A DNA stretch of 64,000 nucleotides. Source: Bordetella genomosp. 9. GTDB taxonomy: Bacteria; Pseudomonadota; Gammaproteobacteria; Burkholderiales; Burkholderiaceae_B. The notes under the pieces were generated by a model. The model was not told the origin of the DNA and did not search any database. It worked only from the letters and a program-made list of their open reading frames with translations. Shown piece after piece: positions 19,617 to 58,984 of this stretch. The DNA is taken from the NCBI RefSeq assembly GCF_002261425.1, contig NZ_NEVJ01000003.1, forward strand, positions 2,914,001-2,978,000, written 5' to 3'. The position numbers were made by a program, and so were the translations under genes. Every line of letters begins with the position of its first letter. Within the stretch, counting starts at the first letter, position 1.

Positions 19617-20917
19617 TCGGCCCCCCTGGGTTCGAGCGCGCGGGGCGGCAAGCCCAGCTCATGCGCGATCCGGTCGTAATAGGCGCGCACCACCGCGTGA
19701 TAGCGCGCGTCGTCCAGCAGGAAGGCATCGTGGCCGTGCGGCGCGTCGATCTCCGCATAGGTGACCGGGCGGTTGTTCTTCAGCAGGGCCCGCACGATCT
19801 CGCGCGATCGCTCCGGCGGGAAACGCCAGTCCGTGCTGAAGGACACCAGCAGGAAGCCCGCGCTCGCCGCCGCCAGCGAACGCGCCAGGTCGCCGCCATG
19901 CGTGCGCGACGGATCGAAGTAATCCAGGGCGCGCGTAATCAGCAGATAGGTGTTGGCGTCGAAATAGCGCGAGAATTTTTCGCCCTGGTAGCGCAGATAG
20001 GATTCGACTTCGAATTCGACGTCGTAACCGTAGCGGTACTCGCCATTGGCGCCGGGTTCGCGCTGCGTGCGGCCGAACTTCTCCGCCATGTCGTCCTGCG
20101 ACAGATAGGTGATGTGCCCGAGCATGCGCGCGACCGCCAGGCCCCGATGCGGCACCGTGCCATGGGCGTAATAATCGCCGCCATGGAAATCGGGGTCCGT
20201 GATGATGGCGCGGCGCGCCACTTCGTTGAACCCGATGTTCTGCGCCGACAGGCGCGGCGTGCTGGCGATGACCACGCAATGCGCCACGCGGTCGGGACAT
20301 GCGGTGGCCCAGCTCAGGGCCTGCATGCCGCCCAGCGAACCGCCCATGACGGCGGCGAACCGGCCGATGCCGAAATGGTCGGCCACGCGCGCCTGGGCGT
20401 GCACCCAGTCTTCGACCGTGAGCACCGGGAAGGCGGCGCCCCAGGGCTTGCCGGTTTCCGGATTGATGCTGGCCGGCCCGGTCGAACCGAAGCAGGAGCC
20501 CAGGTTGTTGATGCCGATCACGAAGAAGCGCTCGGTATCGACGGGCTTGCCCGGACCGACCATGTTGTCCCACCAGCCGATATCCTTGGGGTCGTCCGCC
20601 GAGATGCCGGCCACGTGGTGCGAGGCGTTCAGCGCGTGGCATACCAGCACCGCATTGCTGCGCTCGGCGTTCAAGGTGCCGTAGGTTTCCACCGCCAGTT
20701 CGTAGCTGGGCAGGGACTGGCCGTTGGCCAGCAGCAGGGGCTCGGTGAATTTCAGGAAGACGGGCGCCACCACTCCGACGGAATGGGACGCCGGGGGCGG
20801 CGCGGCGGGCGGGACGCCGGCGGCTACGGCCGACGTGGATACGGGGGCGGCAGCGCGTTGACCGGCAGGTTGCGCGGATACGCCCGCGCCAGCGGATTGC
20901 TCGATGGTTGCAGTCAT
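19613..20917 (-). CDS. metX: homoserine O-acyltransferase MetX
   Basis: MetX acylates homoserine, the first committed step of methionine synthesis. It is an alpha/beta hydrolase with the nucleophile Ser in [13 protein letters not shown], Asp in STDWRFPPE and His in [13 protein letters not shown]. The family includes both acetyl- and succinyltransferases; betaproteobacterial members are often assigned to the succinyl type, which cannot be settled by eye. The 434-residue protein has an Ala/Pro-rich extension of about 45 residues before the conserved [21 protein letters not shown] region. A SAM-II-type riboswitch precedes it. Confidence 0.95.
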
Positions 20918-20921
20918 GCAG

Positions 20922-20981
20922 ACCTCTTTAGCTGGATTTATCAGGCGCCCGCAAGCGGATCAGGCAAATCGGCGCCACCGA
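20922..20981 (-). promoter_or_regulatory. SAM-II (metX/SAM-alpha) riboswitch
   Basis: The metX leader on the minus strand matches the SAM-II consensus in order: GGTGGCGCC, then CGATTTGCC, GCTTGC, a GGCGCC that pairs back to the first element (P1), then the A-rich TGATAAATCC and GCTAAAGAGG. SAM-II folds as an H-type pseudoknot. Its 3' strand runs into the ribosome-binding site (AGAGG about 5 bp before the metX ATG), so SAM binding should block translation of metX-metW. A TAGAAT element at 20994-20999 may be the -10 of the promoter. Confidence 0.85.
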
Positions 20982-21204
20982 AATGAAGGGCTGATTCTAG
21001 CACTCGGCCGGAACCCTGCAGACCCAAGGGGCCCCGGTCGGCCGCGGGCCGCGCCCTCGGACCTGCCGCCACGGTCCCGCCGGAGCGGAATCGCCGCCGC
21101 AATTCCCATTCGGGTCATCGCTGGGCCGCGGCCGACGGCTATCGCACCATCGCCGGCATTCCCGCCTTCCCGCTTCATCCCGCCGTCACGGCAACGATGC
21201 ACCG

Positions 21205-47168: not shown

Positions 47169-47305
47169 CCGGACGCGCCGCCGCGCCCAGGATGGTGCAC
47201 GACGCACCGTCTCGGCGCATCCCCCGCCCACCGCGGGGCATCGCCGGATCATCCCCGCCCCTTCCCCCAAAGGCGCAAAGTTGGCATGCATGTTGCTTGC
47301 TATGC

Positions 47306-47322
47306 ATGCAAGTGACTTGCAT
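47306..47322. promoter_or_regulatory. 17-bp palindrome, operator candidate of the ABC/hydrolase operon
   Basis: ATGCAAGTGACTTGCAT is a perfect palindrome with a central G, 71 bp before the receptor gene. Related half sites (GCATGCATG, CTTGC, CACTTGC) flank it at 47284-47340. The XRE-cupin regulator inside the operon (52624) is a natural candidate to bind it. Confidence 0.55.
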
Positions 47323-47392: not shown

Positions 47393-48223
47393 ATGCTGCG
47401 CAGTCGTTCGATCCTGGCCATGCTGGCTTTCGTCGCGGCCGGTGCCGCGCACGCGGACCTGCTGGACACCGTCAAGCAGAAGAAGGAAATCGTCATAGGC
47501 ACCGAAGCGCAATTCGCGCCCTTCGAGTATCTGCAGGACGGCAAGATCGTCGGCTACGGCCCCGATCTGATGAATACCATCATGGCCGGCCTGCCCGGCG
47601 TCAAGGTCAAGCAACTGGACGTGCCCTTCCAGGGCATCCTGCCCGGCCTGGCCACGCGCAAGTTCGATTTCATCGTGACCTCGGTGACGATGACGAAGGA
47701 ACGCGCCGACAAATTCGCCTTCACCGTGCCGATCGCCGATGCCACCACCGCCCTGGTCAAGCGCAAGGCCGATACCGGGCTGACCAGCACCGATGGCATC
47801 GCCGGCAAGACGGTGGGCTCGCAGACCGGCTCGGCGCAATTGAAGGCATTGCAGGCCTACGCCGAGAAGCTGAAGGCGGCCGGCAAGCCGGCGGTGAACA
47901 TCCGCGAATACGTCAGCTTCGACGAAGCCTACGCCGACCTGGCGGCGGGCCGCCTGGATGCGGTGGCGCAATCCCTCGCCAACCTGGCCACGCTGGTCAA
48001 GACGCGCGGTGACGTCTATGCGGTGATGGACGGCCCCATCGGTCCCAAGACCTACTTCGGCTGGGTCGGCCGCAAGGACGCCGACAGCGCCAGCCTGGTG
48101 AAGTTCTTCAGCGACGGCATCGCCCGCGCGCAGCAGAGCGGCGAACTGCAGAAGCTGCAGATGAAGTGGTTCGGCTTCACCATGGACGTGCCCACCGACA
48201 AGGTTCCCACGCCCGAGATGTGA
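47393..48223 (+). CDS. amino-acid ABC transporter substrate-binding protein
   Basis: The 276-residue periplasmic protein has a signal peptide (cleavage after GAAHA, about residue 21). The SBP_bac_3 fold is clear: KKEIVIGTEAQFAPFEYLQD, GYGPDLMNTIMAG, FDFIVTSVTMTKERADKF (binding loop) and GSAQLKALQAYAEK. Polar amino acids are the usual ligands of this class. A much longer open frame upstream has no homology. It opens an operon with two permeases and an ATPase. The ligand may be a ureido or guanidino amino acid, given the downstream enzymes. Confidence 0.9.
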   Translation: MLRSRSILAMLAFVAAGAAHADLLDTVKQKKEIVIGTEAQFAPFEYLQDGKIVGYGPDLMNTIMAGLPGVKVKQLDVPFQGILPGLATRKFDFIVTSVTMTKERADKFAFTVPIADATTALVKRKADTGLTSTDGIAGKTVGSQTGSAQLKALQAYAEKLKAAGKPAVNIREYVSFDEAYADLAAGRLDAVAQSLANLATLVKTRGDVYAVMDGPIGPKTYFGWVGRKDADSASLVKFFSDGIARAQQSGELQKLQMKWFGFTMDVPTDKVPTPEM

Positions 48224-48233
48224 GCACGCGGCG

Positions 48234-48947
48234 ATGAACGGTCCCACCCTGCTCGAGCGCCTGGCCGCCTATGCGCCCATCCTGGGCCACGGCGCCGCCA
48301 CCACCCTGCTGGTCGCGGTGGTGGCGATCGTCGGGGGCTTCCTGCTGGGCGCCCTGCTGTTGGGGTGCACGCTGACGGGCGGCAAGCGCAGCCCCCTGCG
48401 CCTGGCGGTCATCGCCTATATCAGCTTCTTCCGCGGCACGCCCATGCTGGTGCAGATGTTGATGCTGTTCTACCTGCCCAGCGCGCTGGGCGTGGACCTG
48501 CCGCCGCTGCTCGCGGCCATGGCCGCGATGGCGATGAATTCCGCGGCATTCCAGTGCGAGATCCTGCGCAGCGGGCTGGCGGCGGTGAGCCGCGGCCAAC
48601 TGGAAGCGGGCGCGGTGTTCGGGCTGACGCCGCGCCAGGTTTTCCGCCATATCCAGCTGCCGCAGATGGCCCGCGCGGTCTGGCCCGCGGTGGTGTCCGA
48701 AGCCATCGACGTGATCAAGAACTCCGCCATCGTATCGGTGATCGCCGTCGCCGACCTGGCGCGCGGCGCGCGGCAGATCGTGGCCGGCAACTACCGGCCG
48801 CTGGAAGTCTACGTGACTACCGGCGTGGTGTACCTGGCCCTGACGACCGCCGTGTTCTTGCTGGGAACCTGGCTGGCGCACCGCATGGCGGGTAGCGGCC
48901 ACGCCAGCCGCGCCATCATCCGCCGCAACGCCATCCGGAAGACATGA
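48234..48947 (+). CDS. amino-acid ABC transporter permease
   Basis: This 237-residue HisM/GlnP-type permease has about five membrane segments. It has the EAA loop near the C-terminal half (SRGQLEAGAVFGLTPRQVF, HIQLPQMARAV), which docks to the ATPase. AYISFFRGTPMLVQMLM is the usual early motif. It starts 10 bp after the receptor and overlaps the next permease gene by 4 bp. Confidence 0.93.
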   Translation: MNGPTLLERLAAYAPILGHGAATTLLVAVVAIVGGFLLGALLLGCTLTGGKRSPLRLAVIAYISFFRGTPMLVQMLMLFYLPSALGVDLPPLLAAMAAMAMNSAAFQCEILRSGLAAVSRGQLEAGAVFGLTPRQVFRHIQLPQMARAVWPAVVSEAIDVIKNSAIVSVIAVADLARGARQIVAGNYRPLEVYVTTGVVYLALTTAVFLLGTWLAHRMAGSGHASRAIIRRNAIRKT

Positions 48948-49600
48948 TGGATATCGACCTGATGCTATCGCTGCTGCCGGACTTCGGCGCGGGCGTCCTG
49001 CACACCATGGGCCTGGTGATCGCCGCGCTGGCGGGCGGCCTGGCGTGCGGGTTTATCGCGCACATGCTGCGCGAAACGGGACGGCGGCCCTTCGTCTGGC
49101 TGTACTGGGCCTACACGGTGGTGTGGCGCGGGGTGCCCTTCCTGATCCATCTGTTCATCGTCTATTTCGGCCTGCCCAGTATCGGGGTCTCGCTGGATCC
49201 CTATGCGGCGGCCGCCATCACGCTGTCGATCTACAGCGGCGCCTATTTCGCCGAGATCTTCCGCGCCTGCTGGGAATCCATCCCGCCCGGGCAGATCGAG
49301 GCCGCGCAGGTGATGGGCATCGATCGCCGCCGGATCTTCCGCCATATCCAGCTGCCGCAGGCGCTGCGCGCGGCCGTGCCGCTGGTCGCGCACCAGACCG
49401 TGCTGCTGGTGAAGGAATCGGCGCTGGCCTCGGTGATCACCTATCCCGAACTGACGCTGACGGCGTCGCGCATCGTGTCCGCGCAATTCGTCTACGTCGA
49501 ACCATACATCCTGCTGGCGGGCTGCTACTGGCTGCTGGCCCTGGCCATCGGCCGCATCGGCAGGCTGCTGTCGCGACGGCTGGCGCGGGGGCTGGCATGA
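48944..49600 (+). CDS. amino-acid ABC transporter permease
   Basis: This second permease of 218 residues should form a heterodimer with the preceding one. It has [20 protein letters not shown], the EAA-type motif [20 protein letters not shown] and [18 protein letters not shown]. It starts within the previous stop (ATGA). Confidence 0.93.
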
Positions 49601-49646
49601 AGGCGCCCATCCCATCCATGCACGCTTCATCCACCCGGATCTATCC

Positions 49647-50471
49647 ATGACCGACACCACTCCCACCGGCGCCGCCCTGCCGATGATCTCGCTGCGCGGC
49701 GTCGGCAAATCCTTCGGCGACCATCGCGTGCTGTCCGGCATCGACCTGGACATCGCCCGCGGCGAAGTCGTCACCCTGATCGGCCCGTCCGGCTCGGGCA
49801 AGACCTCGCTGTTGCGATGCATGAATTTCCTGGAAGTCTATGACGAGGGCGAAGTCGATATCCGCGGCGCGCTGCTGGGCTACCGCCGCGCCGCCGACGG
49901 CACGCTGGTGCGCGACAGCGATCGCGCCGTCGCCGAAGTGCGCGCGCCGCTGGCGATGGTGTTCCAGCACTTCAACCTGTGGCCGCATATGACGGCGCTG
50001 GCCAATGTGATGGCGCCGCTGACCCTGGCGCGCGCCAAGCCGGCCAGCCAGGCGCGCCAGATCGCCCTGCAGGCGCTGGAACGGGTCGGCCTGGCCGACA
50101 AGGCCGACGCCATGCCGGCCAGATTGAGCGGCGGGCAGCAGCAGCGCGTCGGCATCGCCCGCGCGCTGGCGGTGTCACCCGAGGCCATGCTGCTGGACGA
50201 GCCGACGTCGGCGCTGGATCCGGAGCTGGTGGACGAAGTGCTGGAAGTCATCAAATCGCTGTCGCGCGAGGGCATGACGATGGTCATGGTGACGCACGAA
50301 ATGAGTTTTGCCGCGGAAGTGTCGGATCGCATCGTGTTCATGGAGCAGGGACGCATCCTGGCGACCGGCGGGGCCGACGACATCATCCGCCGGCCCACCC
50401 ATCCGCGCATCCGCGCCTTCCTGCAACCCTGGATACGGCGCAGCCTGGCGCCGGCGGGGGCCGAACGATGA
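49647..50471 (+). CDS. amino-acid ABC transporter ATP-binding protein
   Basis: The 274-residue ATPase has Walker [11 protein letters not shown]-loop [14 protein letters not shown], signature [15 protein letters not shown], Walker [14 protein letters not shown] and the H-loop MVTHEMSFA. It is typical of the HisP/GlnQ family. It contains a small insertion ([18 protein letters not shown]) between the A and Q loops. It overlaps the M20 hydrolase gene by 4 bp. Confidence 0.94.
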
Positions 50472-51901
50472 GCGATCCGGGCCACCCCAAGCGCGAATCG
50501 CCCCCCGGGGAGGGAGTCACGCAGCGCCAGGATGGCACGCGCATCGCCAGCCTGGCCATGCGCGCGGCCCAAGCCGTCGACCCCGAGCGCCTGCAGGCGC
50601 GCTTGCGGGGGTTGGCGTCCTTTGGCGCCGCCCGTCCCGGCGACATCCATGGCGGTGTCGCGCGCCAGGCGCTCACGCCGCAGGAGTTGCTGGCGCGCCG
50701 CTGGCTGGCCACCGAATTCGCCTGCCGCCCGGGATACTCCGTGGGCATCGATGCCGCGGCCAATGTCTACATCCGGCGCCATGGCGAGAACGCCAACGCC
50801 GCGCCGGTCCTGACCGGCAGCCACGTCGACACGCAGCCGCTGGGCGGCTGGCTGGACGGCGCCTTCGGCGTGGCCGCCGGCCTGGAAGTCTTCGCCGCGC
50901 TGGACGCCGCCGGCCTGCGCACCCACCGTCCCATCGACACCGTCATGTGGACCAACGAGGAAGGCTCGCGCTTCGCGCCCGGCCTGATGGGCTCGGCCTC
51001 CTATACCGACCCGGCGCGCCTGGCCACATTCCGCGATACCGCCGACGCCCAGGGCGTGACCTTCCTGCAGGCCTGCAACGACGCCCGCGAGGACTTCTCC
51101 ATGGCCGCGCGCGAGGCCGGCTGGCGCTGGTTCGACGCACCGCTGGCGCGCCCGCTGCACGCCTATATCGAAGCCCACATCGAACAAGGCCCCATCCTGG
51201 AAGCGCGCGGCCTGCAGGTCGGCTGCGTCACGGCCATACAAGGCGTGCGCTGGTACCGCGTCACGGTGCCGGGCCGCAGCGCGCACGCCGGCACCACGCC
51301 GGATGCCGCGCGCGACGACGCGCAGGCCAAGGCGATCGCGCTGGCGCACGCGCTGCTGGAATACGGCCGCGCCCAGGACGACGCCGCCCTGCGCCTGACC
51401 ATAGGCCGCTGGCAATGCCGGCCGGACTCGATCAACACCATCGCCGACCAGGTCGTGTTCACCATCGACGCGCGCCATCCCGACGCATCGGTACTGGACG
51501 CGCTGCACGCCCGGCTGCAGGCCCTGCTGCCCGCCGGCGCCGCGATCGAGGTCCTGCAGCACAAGCCGACGGTGGCCTTCGACCTGGGCCTGGTCGAACT
51601 CGCAAGGCAGGCCTGCCGGTCGCTGGCGCTGCCGCACGCGGACATGCTGTCCGGCGCCTTCCACGACGCCATGCCGCTGGCCGGCTTCTGCCCCACGGCC
51701 ATGCTGTTCGCGCCCAGCATCGGCGGCGTCAGCCATCACCCCGACGAGCACACCGGCATCGAGGACCTGGCCGCGTGCACGCGGGCGCTGGCCTGGTGCC
51801 TGGCCGAACTCGCGCAGGACGGCAATGTCGGCGCCGCCGATGGAGCCGACGCCGGATCGCCCGCTATCCCTACCCCCGATTTATCCACCCCCACCCGCTA
51901 G
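50468..51901 (+). CDS. M20-family amidohydrolase (N-carbamoyl/allantoate-type)
   Basis: The protein is 477 residues from ATG 50468, overlapping the ATPase stop. It belongs to the Zn-dependent carbamoylase subfamily of M20 (allantoate amidohydrolase, N-carbamoyl-L-amino-acid hydrolase, ureidoglycolate-type enzymes). Metal-ligand motifs are [22 protein letters not shown] and [17 protein letters not shown] is the subfamily signature. It should release ammonia and CO2 from a ureido or carbamoyl group. The first 28 residues (before [12 protein letters not shown]) are not conserved, so an internal start at about 50558 is possible. Confidence 0.85.
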
Positions 51902-51912
51902 GAATCAACACG

Positions 51913-52614
51913 ATGCAAACCGCAACCAGCATCCCGCAGGTGGCCGACAACGGCGAACCGGTCGGCCTGAACAACACCCATCTGGAACCCATCTCGGCCG
52001 ATGGCCGCGCCGAGCCGGGCAAGGTGTACGAAGTCCCCGCCCGCAACGGCCGCGCCGTCCGCCTGTCCAAGGGCCAGGTCATCCGCATCATCAACACCCA
52101 TGGCAGCCAGGTATGCGACACCTGGGCTTTCAAGGCCGACGACCTCAGCGAGTTCATGTCCATGGAACATGCGCGCGCCATGATCGACCGCATCATCCCG
52201 AAAGTGGGAGACCCGCTGGGCAGCAACCGCCGCCGCCCCATCATGACCCTGACGGCCGATACCTCGCCGGGCGTGCACGACACCCTGATGGCGGCCTGCG
52301 ACGCCTATCGCTACCGCAACCTGGGCGTCGAGCACTACCACGACAACTGCGCCGACAACATGCGCATGGCGCTGAAAGCCATCGGCCTGCGCGCGCGCGA
52401 AGTCCCGCAGCCGCTGAACCTGTGGATGAACATCCCCGTGAACGCGGAAGGCGGCGTGCAATGGCTGGCCCCCGTATCGAAGGCGGGCGACTACGTGGAC
52501 CTGCGCGCGGAAATGGACTGCGTGGTCGTGATGTCGGCCTGCCCGCAGGACATCATTCCGATCAACGACAACCGTCCCGTCGAAGTGCACTTCCAGGTGC
52601 TCGACCAGGCATAG
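51913..52614 (+). CDS. DUF1989 protein (urea-carboxylase-associated / carboxyguanidine-deiminase family)
   Basis: The 233-residue cytoplasmic protein fits DUF1989, the family that includes the CgdA/CgdB subunits of carboxyguanidine deiminase. Possible metal ligands are C68 (SQVCDTWAF), H122 (SPGVHDTL), H143 and C146 (YHDNCADN) and C210 (SACPQD). NLWMNIPV is a typical segment. A single copy is present and not two subunits. It lies 11 bp after the M20 gene and 9 bp before the regulator. By relation to the Cgd proteins it may hydrolyse a guanidino-type C-N bond; this is inference. Confidence 0.8.
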   Translation: MQTATSIPQVADNGEPVGLNNTHLEPISADGRAEPGKVYEVPARNGRAVRLSKGQVIRIINTHGSQVCDTWAFKADDLSEFMSMEHARAMIDRIIPKVGDPLGSNRRRPIMTLTADTSPGVHDTLMAACDAYRYRNLGVEHYHDNCADNMRMALKAIGLRAREVPQPLNLWMNIPVNAEGGVQWLAPVSKAGDYVDLRAEMDCVVVMSACPQDIIPINDNRPVEVHFQVLDQA

Positions 52615-52623
52615 AATTCCGCC

Positions 52624-53226
52624 ATGGCTACCCGCAGACCTTCCCCTTCGACTCCCGAGCGCGGGCTTGCCGCGCTGGGACCGCGCGTCAAGCATGCCCG
52701 CATGGTGCACAACCTGACGCTGAAGGCGCTGGCGGAGGCCGCCGAGTGCTCGGAAAGCCTGCTGTCACGCATCGAACGCGGCCAGACGATGCCATCGTTG
52801 AACACCCTGCACCGCCTGGCCCATGCGCTGGACACCAACGTGGCCGAGCTGACCGCCGCCGACGCCCCGCCGGCCTCGCCCGTGACACGGGCGGCCGACC
52901 GCCCCGTCCTGGCGTTCAGCCAGGCGCGCGGACGCAAGGGCGGCGTCAAGCTGGAGCGCGTCATCGTGCCGATGCGCGGCCAGTTGCTGCAGGCGGACAT
53001 CCACGTGCTGGAGCCGCTGGCGGAAAGCCTGGAACAGATCGCGCACGCCGGCGAGGAAATGGGCTACGTGATCGAAGGCCGCTTCGAGCTGCGCCTGGGC
53101 GAGGAAATCCACCTGCTCGACGCTGGCGACTCCTTCTATTTCTCCAGCGATGTTCCGCATAGCTATCGCAATCCGGGCAAGACGGTGACGCGGGTGCTGT
53201 GGGTGAACACGCCCACCACCTTCTGA
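52624..53226 (+). CDS. XRE-cupin transcriptional regulator
   Basis: The 200-residue regulator has an N-terminal HTH (LGPRVKHARMVHNLTLKALA, AAECSESLLSRIERG) and a C-terminal cupin (AHAGEEMGYVIEGRFELRLG, YFSSDVPHSYRNPG). The cupin binds the effector, typically an amine, amino acid or polyamine. It is inside the operon (8-9 bp to both neighbours), so it probably controls the operon, perhaps through the palindrome at 47306. Confidence 0.9.
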   Translation: MATRRPSPSTPERGLAALGPRVKHARMVHNLTLKALAEAAECSESLLSRIERGQTMPSLNTLHRLAHALDTNVAELTAADAPPASPVTRAADRPVLAFSQARGRKGGVKLERVIVPMRGQLLQADIHVLEPLAESLEQIAHAGEEMGYVIEGRFELRLGEEIHLLDAGDSFYFSSDVPHSYRNPGKTVTRVLWVNTPTTF

Positions 53227-53234
53227 ACGCCCCC

Positions 53235-54185
53235 ATGCATTCCGCCACGGACACCCGCGCGCAGGCGCAGCCGCGCTACAGCGGCATCCCGACCTTCATG
53301 CGCGTCCCGTACACGACGCGGCTGGAGGATTTCGATATCGGCATCGTCGGCGTGCCGTTCGATGGCGGCGTCACGGCGCGGCCCGGCGCCCGCTACGGTC
53401 CCCGGGAAATCCGCAATATGTCGTCGATGACGCGCGCGATCCATCACGTGACCCGCTTCAACCCGTTCGCCGCCTGCCGGGTGGCCGACGTGGGCGACGT
53501 GCCGTTCACCGACGTGTTCCACCTGGAGAATTCGCACGCGGATATCCGGCGCTTTCTTGAGCCGATCTACGCGGCCGGCAAACGGACCCTGGTCGCGGGC
53601 GGCGATCATTCGATCACCTTTCCCATCTTCCAGGCCATGGCGCCGCGCGAGCCGCTGGGCATGGTGCATATCGATGCGCATACGGACACCTGGGATGATT
53701 TCATCGGCTCCAAGTTCAGCCACGGCTCGCCCTTTCGCCGTGCGGTGGAAGCCGGGATGCTGGATCCGAAACGGACCGTGCAGATCGGCATCCGCGGGGC
53801 GCAGAACTCCGACGAAGGCTGGCGTTATTCTCTCGAATCCGGCATGAGAGTGATCTTCATCGAGGAATTCGATCGCATGGGCGTCGAGGCCGTCATCGCC
53901 GAGGCGCGGCGCGTTGTCGGCGGCGGTCCGAGTTACCTGTCCGTGGACGTCGACGGGCTGGACCCCGTATACGCGCCGGGGACCGGGACGCCCGAGATAG
54001 GCGGCCTGTCCACGCGCGAGACCCTCACGCTGCTGCGCGGCCTGGAAGGCCTGGACCTGCGCGGCGCCGACGTGGTGGAAGTCGCGCCGCCGTATGACCC
54101 GAGCGGGAATACGGCGCTGCTGGGCGCGACCTTGATGTATGAGTGCCTCTGCTTGCTGGCGCGGGCTTGGGAGATGGGAAGGTAA
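53235..54185 (+). CDS. ureohydrolase (agmatinase/guanidino-acid hydrolase family)
   Basis: The 316-residue enzyme has all Mn-binding motifs of arginase-like hydrolases: AGGDHSIT, HIDAHTDTWDD and SVDVDGLDPVYAPGTGTPE. GVPFDGGVTARPGARYGPREI is the usual N-terminal part. It hydrolyses a guanidino group to urea and an amine. Agmatinase, guanidinobutyrase, guanidinopropionase and Ni-dependent guanidine hydrolases all share this fold, so the substrate cannot be set from sequence. ATG 53235 is 8 bp after the regulator stop. It is the last gene of the eight-gene operon. Confidence 0.88.
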   Translation: MHSATDTRAQAQPRYSGIPTFMRVPYTTRLEDFDIGIVGVPFDGGVTARPGARYGPREIRNMSSMTRAIHHVTRFNPFAACRVADVGDVPFTDVFHLENSHADIRRFLEPIYAAGKRTLVAGGDHSITFPIFQAMAPREPLGMVHIDAHTDTWDDFIGSKFSHGSPFRRAVEAGMLDPKRTVQIGIRGAQNSDEGWRYSLESGMRVIFIEEFDRMGVEAVIAEARRVVGGGPSYLSVDVDGLDPVYAPGTGTPEIGGLSTRETLTLLRGLEGLDLRGADVVEVAPPYDPSGNTALLGATLMYECLCLLARAWEMGR

Positions 54186-54786: not shown

Positions 54787-58563
<3,777 letters not shown>

Positions 58564-58660
58564 GGGCGTTCCTGCAGGGAAGGCGGATGGATTGCAAAGA
58601 AGCAACCTGGAATGGTAACAAAGCCCGCGAAATCCTGGGGCCGTGATACATTCCGGGCCC

Positions 58661-58868
58661 TCGAACCGGTGCTTTCAACGCAAACGCGCGCAAGCGCGCC
58701 GCGTGGTGAAAGGTAAACGGGAAACAGGAACGCGCCGCCGGACCGTCCATGAGACGGCCCGCGACGGCGCCAGGCCTGTGCTGCCCCCGCAACGGTCATC
58801 CCGCCCCATTATTCCAGGCCGCGCCACGGCGCCTGGAACCGGGTGGGACAGCCCGATACCGGCCGGTT
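58661..58868 (+). promoter_or_regulatory. cobalamin (AdoCbl) riboswitch of btuB
   Basis: The leader has the class-I cobalamin elements in order: GGTGC at 58668, AAACGGGAAAC at 58714-58725, GCCTGTGCTGCCCCCGCAAC around 58774-58793 (the B12 box), and the final GGGTGGGACAGCCCGATACC ending near 58860. The btuB start is 117 bp downstream. Adenosylcobalamin should repress btuB and btuF. Confidence 0.9.
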
Positions 58869-58984
58869 CGTCCGGGGAAGACGACAAGTGACGCCAGCCT
58901 TGCCGTGCCTGCGGCGCCGGCCGCCAGCCGTCTTCCGCTTCCTTGAACGACGTGCGGGGTCGCGCGTCATCACCAGGTCTCGCT

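Follow-up and report, generated by a model that had tools for sequence, protein, structure and literature searches.

The operon described here, an eight-gene cassette in Bordetella genomosp. 9, has its closest described relatives in four places. The first is GpuA, the 3-guanidinopropionase of Pseudomonas aeruginosa (PDB 3nip), which is compared as an enzyme only. The second is the guanidine carboxylase pathway with CgdA and CgdB, two clades from one ancestor within the DUF1989 family (PMC11410670). Carboxyguanidine deiminase, a characterized DUF1989 enzyme, acts ahead of allophanate hydrolase (PMC11410670; family, PMC11271267). The third is the M20 hydantoinase/carbamoylase family, which includes the N-carbamoyl amino acid and allantoate amidohydrolases, and the fourth is the pair of opine receptors OccJ and NocT. 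The operon lies in a stretch of 64,000 nucleotides, called the window throughout (contig NZ_NEVJ01000003.1 of assembly GCF_002261425.1, positions 2,914,001 to 2,978,000, forward strand). A first-pass annotation, made from the letters alone, knew of no pathway with exactly this gene set. Likewise, none was found among the matches listed in the literature searched, a weak absence given that the search covered titles and the starts of abstracts and that most subscription papers fall outside it.

The operon spans window positions 47393 to 54185. Open reading frame (ORF) and start calls give eight genes on the + strand, with all gaps at or below 46 bp and two 4-bp overlaps, as the first-pass annotation had read them. 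Pfam also agrees with the family named there for each gene, the main family lying above its curated cut-off every time. The features are as follows.

47282 to 47297, + strand: sigma54-type (-24/-12) promoter, TGGCAY-N5-TTGCW, the sole match to this pattern in the window
47306 to 47322, no strand assigned: perfect palindrome ATGCAAGT-N-ACTTGCAT, the probable XRE-cupin operator, the sole window match at up to 2 mismatches
47393 to 48223, + strand: SBP_bac_3 periplasmic substrate-binding protein (Pfam), with Arg104 retained and Ser194 replacing the amino-binding Asp
48234 to 48947, + strand: first ATP-binding cassette (ABC) permease subunit (Pfam and curated models)
48944 to 49600, + strand: second ABC permease subunit (Pfam and curated models), overlapping the first by 4 bp
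49647 to 50471, + strand: ABC ATPase of polar-amino-acid type (Pfam and curated models), after a 46-bp gap
50468 to 51901, + strand: M20 hydantoinase/carbamoylase-family amidohydrolase (TIGR01879), overlapping the ATPase gene by 4 bp, predicted to hydrolyze an N-carbamoyl (ureido) acid
51913 to 52614, + strand: stand-alone DUF1989 metalloprotein (Pfam, kept residues), putative guanidino-acid deiminase
52624 to 53226, + strand: XRE-cupin regulator (Pfam), predicted substrate-responsive repressor
53235 to 54185, + strand: ureohydrolase, nearest to the 3-guanidinopropionase GpuA (56% identity)

We propose, with a probability of about 50%, that this operon scavenges nitrogen from a short guanidino acid. 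The best candidates for the exact substrate are 3-guanidinopropionate and its isosteres, creatine among them. The proposal is built on what can be read from the DNA and its relatives: the operon and its conservation, the promoter motif, the link between the palindrome and the regulator gene, the receptor signature, and the intact metal-ligand positions. The first-pass annotation had described a single operon that combines import with C–N bond hydrolysis and harvests nitrogen. That description is supported, and the sigma54-type promoter backs the nitrogen role. The promoter with its palindrome, the receptor signature, and the pairing of a GpuA-nearest ureohydrolase with a stand-alone DUF1989 protein sharpen it.

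Conservation was assessed across 78 loci, obtained by searching a single genome of each species for the DUF1989 protein. The scan favors close relatives because its short patterns came from the window's own protein. Gene order was counted in the contiguous + strand run around DUF1989, with plasmid loci left out. The first-pass annotation had set conservation of gene order beforehand as the test of its idea, and 22/78 loci have all eight families arranged as in the window: 19 of them exactly, 2 with an extra upstream ATPase, and 1 with an extra downstream XRE gene. These loci come from Alcaligenaceae, Comamonadaceae, Burkholderiaceae, and Oxalobacteraceae. Thirteen Halomonadaceae loci share a variant order of seven families (receptor, permeases, ATPase, DUF1989, M20, ureohydrolase), with a divergent LysR gene in place of the XRE-cupin gene, for which they give no match. 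The gene-order conservation in the 22 loci, together with the variant order in the 13, makes the grouping more than chance, and on this comparison the eight genes are one real, conserved operon. The other 43 loci are less complete: 7 have no ureohydrolase (3 of them cut by a contig end), 3 have no M20, 3 hold M20 and DUF1989 only, and 4 hold DUF1989 with transporter genes only. In the remaining 26, DUF1989 stands alone in its same-strand contiguous run, and some of these, such as L064 and L065, have other members at a greater distance or on the opposite strand.

The cassette is patchily distributed. Among 200 genomes from the family of an Achromobacter genome, 10 contain a DUF1989 match at or below 1e-60, and in six of these the match reaches at least 81% identity. 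The eight-gene form is also plasmid-borne in Caballeronia, and several Paraburkholderia plasmid records place DUF1989 and ureohydrolase matches about 1 kb apart, as judged from match positions only. A Klebsiella pneumoniae IncFII/IncR plasmid (L079) carries a form without ureohydrolase, flanked by insertion sequences. On a Mesorhizobium plasmid (L080:8003-16128), DUF1989 and LysR genes accompany three genes for ureohydrolases and one for a receptor that shows the window's Arg/Ser signature; M20 gives no match there. In one metagenome-assembled genome (L057:7820-9913), ATPase and M20 share a single frame of 697 residues, which may be either a true fusion or a sequencing error.

Upstream of the first gene lies the sigma54-type site, TGGCATGCATGTTGCT. 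We compared 50 receptor upstream regions, including the window and three plasmid loci, of which 26 were scored as XRE-bearing. All 26 contain a sigma54 site (22 strict, 4 loose), against an expectation of 0.008 per region when the loose form is counted, and all 26 contain the palindrome at no more than one mismatch, 20 of them exactly. Among the other 24 regions, only L029 and L036 have the palindrome, and tblastn shows an XRE gene in both; L036 also has the sigma54 site. Conversely, L007, with no XRE match, has a sigma54 site and no palindrome. A whole-genome search of the 22 XRE-type genomes returned 20 exact palindromes and, for the reversed pattern used as a control, a single site. Eighteen genomes have one exact copy, one has two, and three have none; 19 of the 20 copies sit at this operon, the two-site genome contributing one through L008. 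In the 13 genomes from Halomonadaceae, where LysR stands in for XRE-cupin, no exact palindrome occurs. An exact copy is present roughly once in a genome and goes with the XRE-cupin gene, so the palindrome is very probably the operator of that protein. Usual sigma54 promoter spacing would place it at about +1 to +15. The promoter and this putative operator are well supported by the comparison, and we have good confidence that the XRE-cupin protein is a near single-site regulator of the operon promoter, presumably a repressor.

Sigma54 promoters require an activator. None is encoded among the eight genes, and thus NtrC is the natural candidate. GGTGC and GCACC, which we take to be NtrC-like half-sites, occur 73 times upstream versus 23.8 in shuffles, in related genomes that are not independent. 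A clean NtrC site was dropped as a claim: half-sites are enriched, and the best full-site matches to the consensus are mostly weak.

The class of the importer is well supported by its genes, and its receptor offers clues to the ligand. In LAO, the ligand's amino group is held by Ser72 and Asp161, and the binding residues also include Arg77 (PMC5740067). The window receptor fails the alpha-amino-acid signature of substrate-binding protein (SBP) family 3: the Arg is kept and the Asp is not. The same holds for 49/49 operon receptors, window included, in which Arg is kept and Ser stands in place of Asp (Asp 0/49). This count omits two low-identity SBPs, L036_23 (Ser) and L047_29 (Asp), and the reference AncQR; residue counts here and below omit short ORFs (<80% of the window protein). 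At the Asp position, the receptors for octopine and nopaline, both of them N-substituted ligands, carry Asn and Ser (PMC5740067). OccJ and NocT belong to the same receptor family and share a non-Asp residue where LAO has Asp161, but they are far from the best-scoring solved receptors for the window SBP, and no opine oxidase is encoded among the operon's eight genes. Because Arg is kept while the amino-binding Asp is replaced by Ser, the receptor suggests a ligand that is an acid with a carboxylate and no free alpha-amino group. The first-pass annotation had named a guanidino or ureido amino acid as substrate. A guanidino or N-substituted acid fits better, an ordinary guanidino or ureido amino acid being improbable with the loss of the Asp. 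Free guanidine was rejected as the substrate, given the retained carboxylate-binding Arg and the lack of a guanidine riboswitch: Rfam gave three matches in the window, none at the operon, and a transfer RNA as the sole match in 14 chosen loci.

The ureohydrolase has as its closest solved relatives GpuA (56% identity), GbuA (47%), proclavaminate amidinohydrolase (40%), and then an agmatinase. The nearest other ureohydrolase in a protein search, 93% identical, is named from Bordetella bronchialis. The metal-ligand positions D124, H125, D147, H149, and D151 are intact in 37/37 operon ureohydrolases, a count that omits L064, L065, three Mesorhizobium enzymes, and three references. The substrate-recognition residue is Tyr157 in GpuA and Met161 in GbuA (PMC10833137); at the GpuA position, the operon enzymes have His (2/37) or Phe (35/37), the latter being also the residue of proclavaminate amidinohydrolase. 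Compared with GpuA, then, they keep the metal-ligand positions and, mostly, an aromatic recognition residue, but they have Trp in place of Asn154 (37/37) and are surrounded by an ABC importer, DUF1989, M20, and XRE-cupin genes. A ureohydrolase step on a short guanidino acid is likely.

An ordinary agmatinase or arginine-related polyamine operon is a very improbable reading of the same genes. It can point to the NCBI agmatinase model TIGR01230, which the enzyme passes (197.1 versus a cut-off of 174.3 bits), and to the names of close relatives, agmatinase at NCBI. However, many of those relatives are called guanidinopropionase at JGI, agmatinase is only fourth among the nearest solved enzymes, and the receptor keeps a carboxylate-binding Arg that agmatine does not need. 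The model is also broad, since a Mesorhizobium ureohydrolase only 35% identical passes it too. Human AGMAT, long annotated as an agmatinase, hydrolyzes guanidino acids (PMC9772407), so a model-derived agmatinase name carries little weight. L007 combines an importer and a DUF1989 gene close to the window's with a ureohydrolase that clusters with an Aminobacter enzyme (100/99), which hints at repeated recruitment of such enzymes. Ureohydrolase phylogeny as proof of one origin was dropped, the backbone of the tree being unresolved.

The M20 protein passes the TIGR01879 hydantoinase/carbamoylase model (320.2 versus a cut-off of 204 bits) and in this resembles the described family. It differs in falling below the cut-off of every narrower member model scored, ErtE and the allantoate deiminase AllC model TIGR03176 included (219.9 versus 597.75 bits for the latter). 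Operon M20s from Burkholderiales, Halomonadaceae, and Pantoea/Klebsiella cluster with the divergent M20 of L064 and L065 in a group of 48 rows (99/99). That group stands apart from six other M20s in the compared loci, among them a distant M20 near the L022 operon, in a midpoint-rooted tree whose outsider set is small.

The DUF1989 protein appears to be an intact metalloprotein. Cys129 (86/87 rows), His143 (85/87), Cys146 (86/87), Cys210 (87/87), and Asp213 (85/87) are kept, and these three Cys, His, and Asp match the metal site discussed for trimethylamine N-oxide (TMAO) demethylase (PMC12560246). In the Azospirillum UAAP1/UAAP2 pair, UAAP1 retains one of the five residues, a Cys, and UAAP2 lacks Asp213. 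The pair groups with L056_b and L058_b (100/95), with the window and 86 other rows on the opposite side (93/94, not fully supported); this tree is midpoint rooted, with unsettled bootstrap, flagged long branches, and a single UAAP1/UAAP2 pair. A second DUF1989 match occurs only in L056, L058, and L076 of the 78 loci, and the window has one DUF1989 gene. The first-pass annotation had pointed to the carboxyguanidine deiminase subunits within the DUF1989 family. For the operon protein, membership in CgdAB was rejected, as it lies outside the CgdA/CgdB-like group with no adjacent partner gene. CgdA/CgdB and the operon share the DUF1989 family and a C–N hydrolase in the same route, but the operon has a single gene in a separate tree group with a complete metal-ligand set, and it has no carboxylase. 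L056 and L058 combine a DUF1989 gene from the window's part of the tree with one that falls beside the UAAP pair, each followed by a Rieske oxygenase gene.

In the literature surveyed, the DUF1989 proteins with known reactions are carboxyguanidine deiminase and TMAO demethylase only. One characterized relative and the C–N hydrolases encoded nearby (M20 in the operon and, for DUF1989 genes at a greater evolutionary distance, an amidase and a deacetylase) lead us to read the operon protein as a presumed guanidino-acid deiminase. A broader idea is tentative, and we consider it somewhat doubtful: the stand-alone clade may be a new family of guanidino-acid deiminases, each paired with an adjacent carbamoylase (M20 here, an amidase elsewhere), giving a second, urea-free route beside the ureohydrolase under joint sigma54 and XRE-cupin control.

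The neighborhoods of M20 and DUF1989 also allow a different arrangement, in which one importer and one promoter serve two unrelated nitrogen sources: the ureohydrolase would act on a guanidino acid, and M20 with DUF1989 on a ureido product of purine or pyrimidine catabolism (an N-carbamoyl acid or an allantoate-like compound). We regard this as unlikely, though worth serious attention. It is in keeping with the 3/78 loci that hold M20 and DUF1989 without transporter and ureohydrolase, one of which (L018, whose neighbors are common to the other two) continues into oxalurate (HpxZ), amidase, and molybdenum-hydroxylase type genes. It also suits the distant DUF1989 genes that lie beside a deacetylase (PuuE model, below cut-off), an amidase, and once a cytosine permease. 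Finally, in Halomonadaceae loci L037, L043, L045, and L046, the 3 kb or so downstream contain genes for a RutR-like regulator, methylmalonate-semialdehyde dehydrogenase, and an AptA-type omega-aminotransferase; L048 and L052 each hold two of these genes (in total 6/18 Halomonadaceae loci, all close relatives). For L037 the proteins were scanned, its RutR-like regulator scoring below the RutR cut-off; the other loci were assigned by clustering. The two-source arrangement has to contend, however, with all eight families standing together in 22/78 loci, with the distance of M20 from the AllC cut-off, and with L064 and L065, which hold a ureohydrolase, DUF1989, and an operon-type M20 close by in another arrangement. 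The downstream set also fits beta-alanine as a product of the proposed guanidino-acid operon.

L064 and L065 raise a further candidate, creatine. L064 has a creatininase above its curated cut-off (353 versus 235 bits) next to a GpuA-like gene (75% identical to GpuA), ABC genes, and DUF1989; L065 is alike, with a creatininase 95% identical, and a relative occurs in L068 as well. Creatine is an isomer of 3-guanidinopropionate. If creatine, or creatine derived from creatinine, were the substrate, the ureohydrolase would yield sarcosine and urea, and DUF1989 and M20 would act by way of N-carbamoylsarcosine. We judge this improbable: creatininase exceeds its cut-off in just 3/35 operon-bearing genomes, all Halomonadaceae, and in 0/22 of the XRE type, with weaker matches in 17 more. 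Human guanidino acid hydrolase and the comammox guanidinase did not act on creatine (PMC9772407, PMC11410670). Creatinine as the general substrate was rejected on the same 3/35 count.

Urea released by a ureohydrolase can be used by operon-bearing genomes, through urease or a urea-carboxylase-type enzyme. Urease was searched in the genomes of 35 of the 78 loci and exceeds its cut-off in 29; urea carboxylase was searched in 15 of those 35, and an enzyme of this type exceeds its cut-off in five of the six urease-less genomes, where it could equally be guanidine carboxylase.

Under the guanidino-acid proposal, nitrogen limitation would switch on the sigma54 promoter, probably through NtrC, and the substrate would lift repression by making the XRE-cupin protein leave its operator, which lies at the start of transcription. 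The short guanidino acid would enter through the ABC importer, and the ureohydrolase would split it into urea and an amino acid, beta-alanine in the case of 3-guanidinopropionate. Urease or urea carboxylase encoded elsewhere in the genome would consume the urea. In parallel, and less surely, the stand-alone DUF1989 protein would strip ammonia from the guanidino group to leave an N-carbamoyl acid, which M20 would hydrolyze to the amino acid, CO2, and ammonia. The DUF1989 and M20 steps, their order, the exact substrate, and its sharing by all three enzymes are the more conjectural parts of this scheme.

Several observations weigh against this proposal. A second route for the same substrate seems superfluous. 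M20 is absent from the operon in L007, L019, and L022, and the ureohydrolase is absent in L021, L036, L049, L050, and the plasmid locus L079. The specificity of GpuA is not simply transferable because Asn154 has become Trp, the Phe at the recognition position is common to proclavaminate amidinohydrolase, and the agmatinase model is passed. Whether the Burkholderiales and Halomonadaceae enzymes form a single clade is left unsettled by the ureohydrolase tree. The receptor argument is not conclusive: introducing Asp at the position in OccJ left ligand recognition unchanged, and OccJ binds arginine weakly (both PMC5740067). Another DUF1989 enzyme demethylates TMAO (PMC12560246), and the literature surveyed offers no experimental precedent for a deiminase role of a stand-alone DUF1989 protein. 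On the regulatory side, L029 bears an XRE gene and the palindrome with no match to the sigma54 pattern, and the best full NtrC-site match is significant alone in only 7/28 upstream regions.

The operon, if it works as proposed, would extend the guanidino-nitrogen pathways described so far by one more route. It also opens an uncharacterized DUF1989 clade to direct functional tests, since the cassette is conserved and offers a probable class of importer ligand, an operator almost unique in the genome, and two enzymes as candidate partners.

Upstream of the operon, GntR and EamA genes were ruled out as members: the promoter lies after both, and among the compared loci only L001, L004, and L027 have a GntR relative immediately upstream, while none has an EamA relative there. 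Elsewhere in the window, Rfam places a cobalamin riboswitch at 58650-58881 on the + strand (32.8 bits), ahead of genes for a TonB-dependent receptor and a periplasmic binding protein. The large - strand gene adjoining it (54787-58605) presumably encodes a B12-dependent methionine synthase. A SAM-alpha riboswitch aptamer lies at 20907-20985 on the - strand (Rfam, 40.3 bits), and the host looks like a betaproteobacterium.

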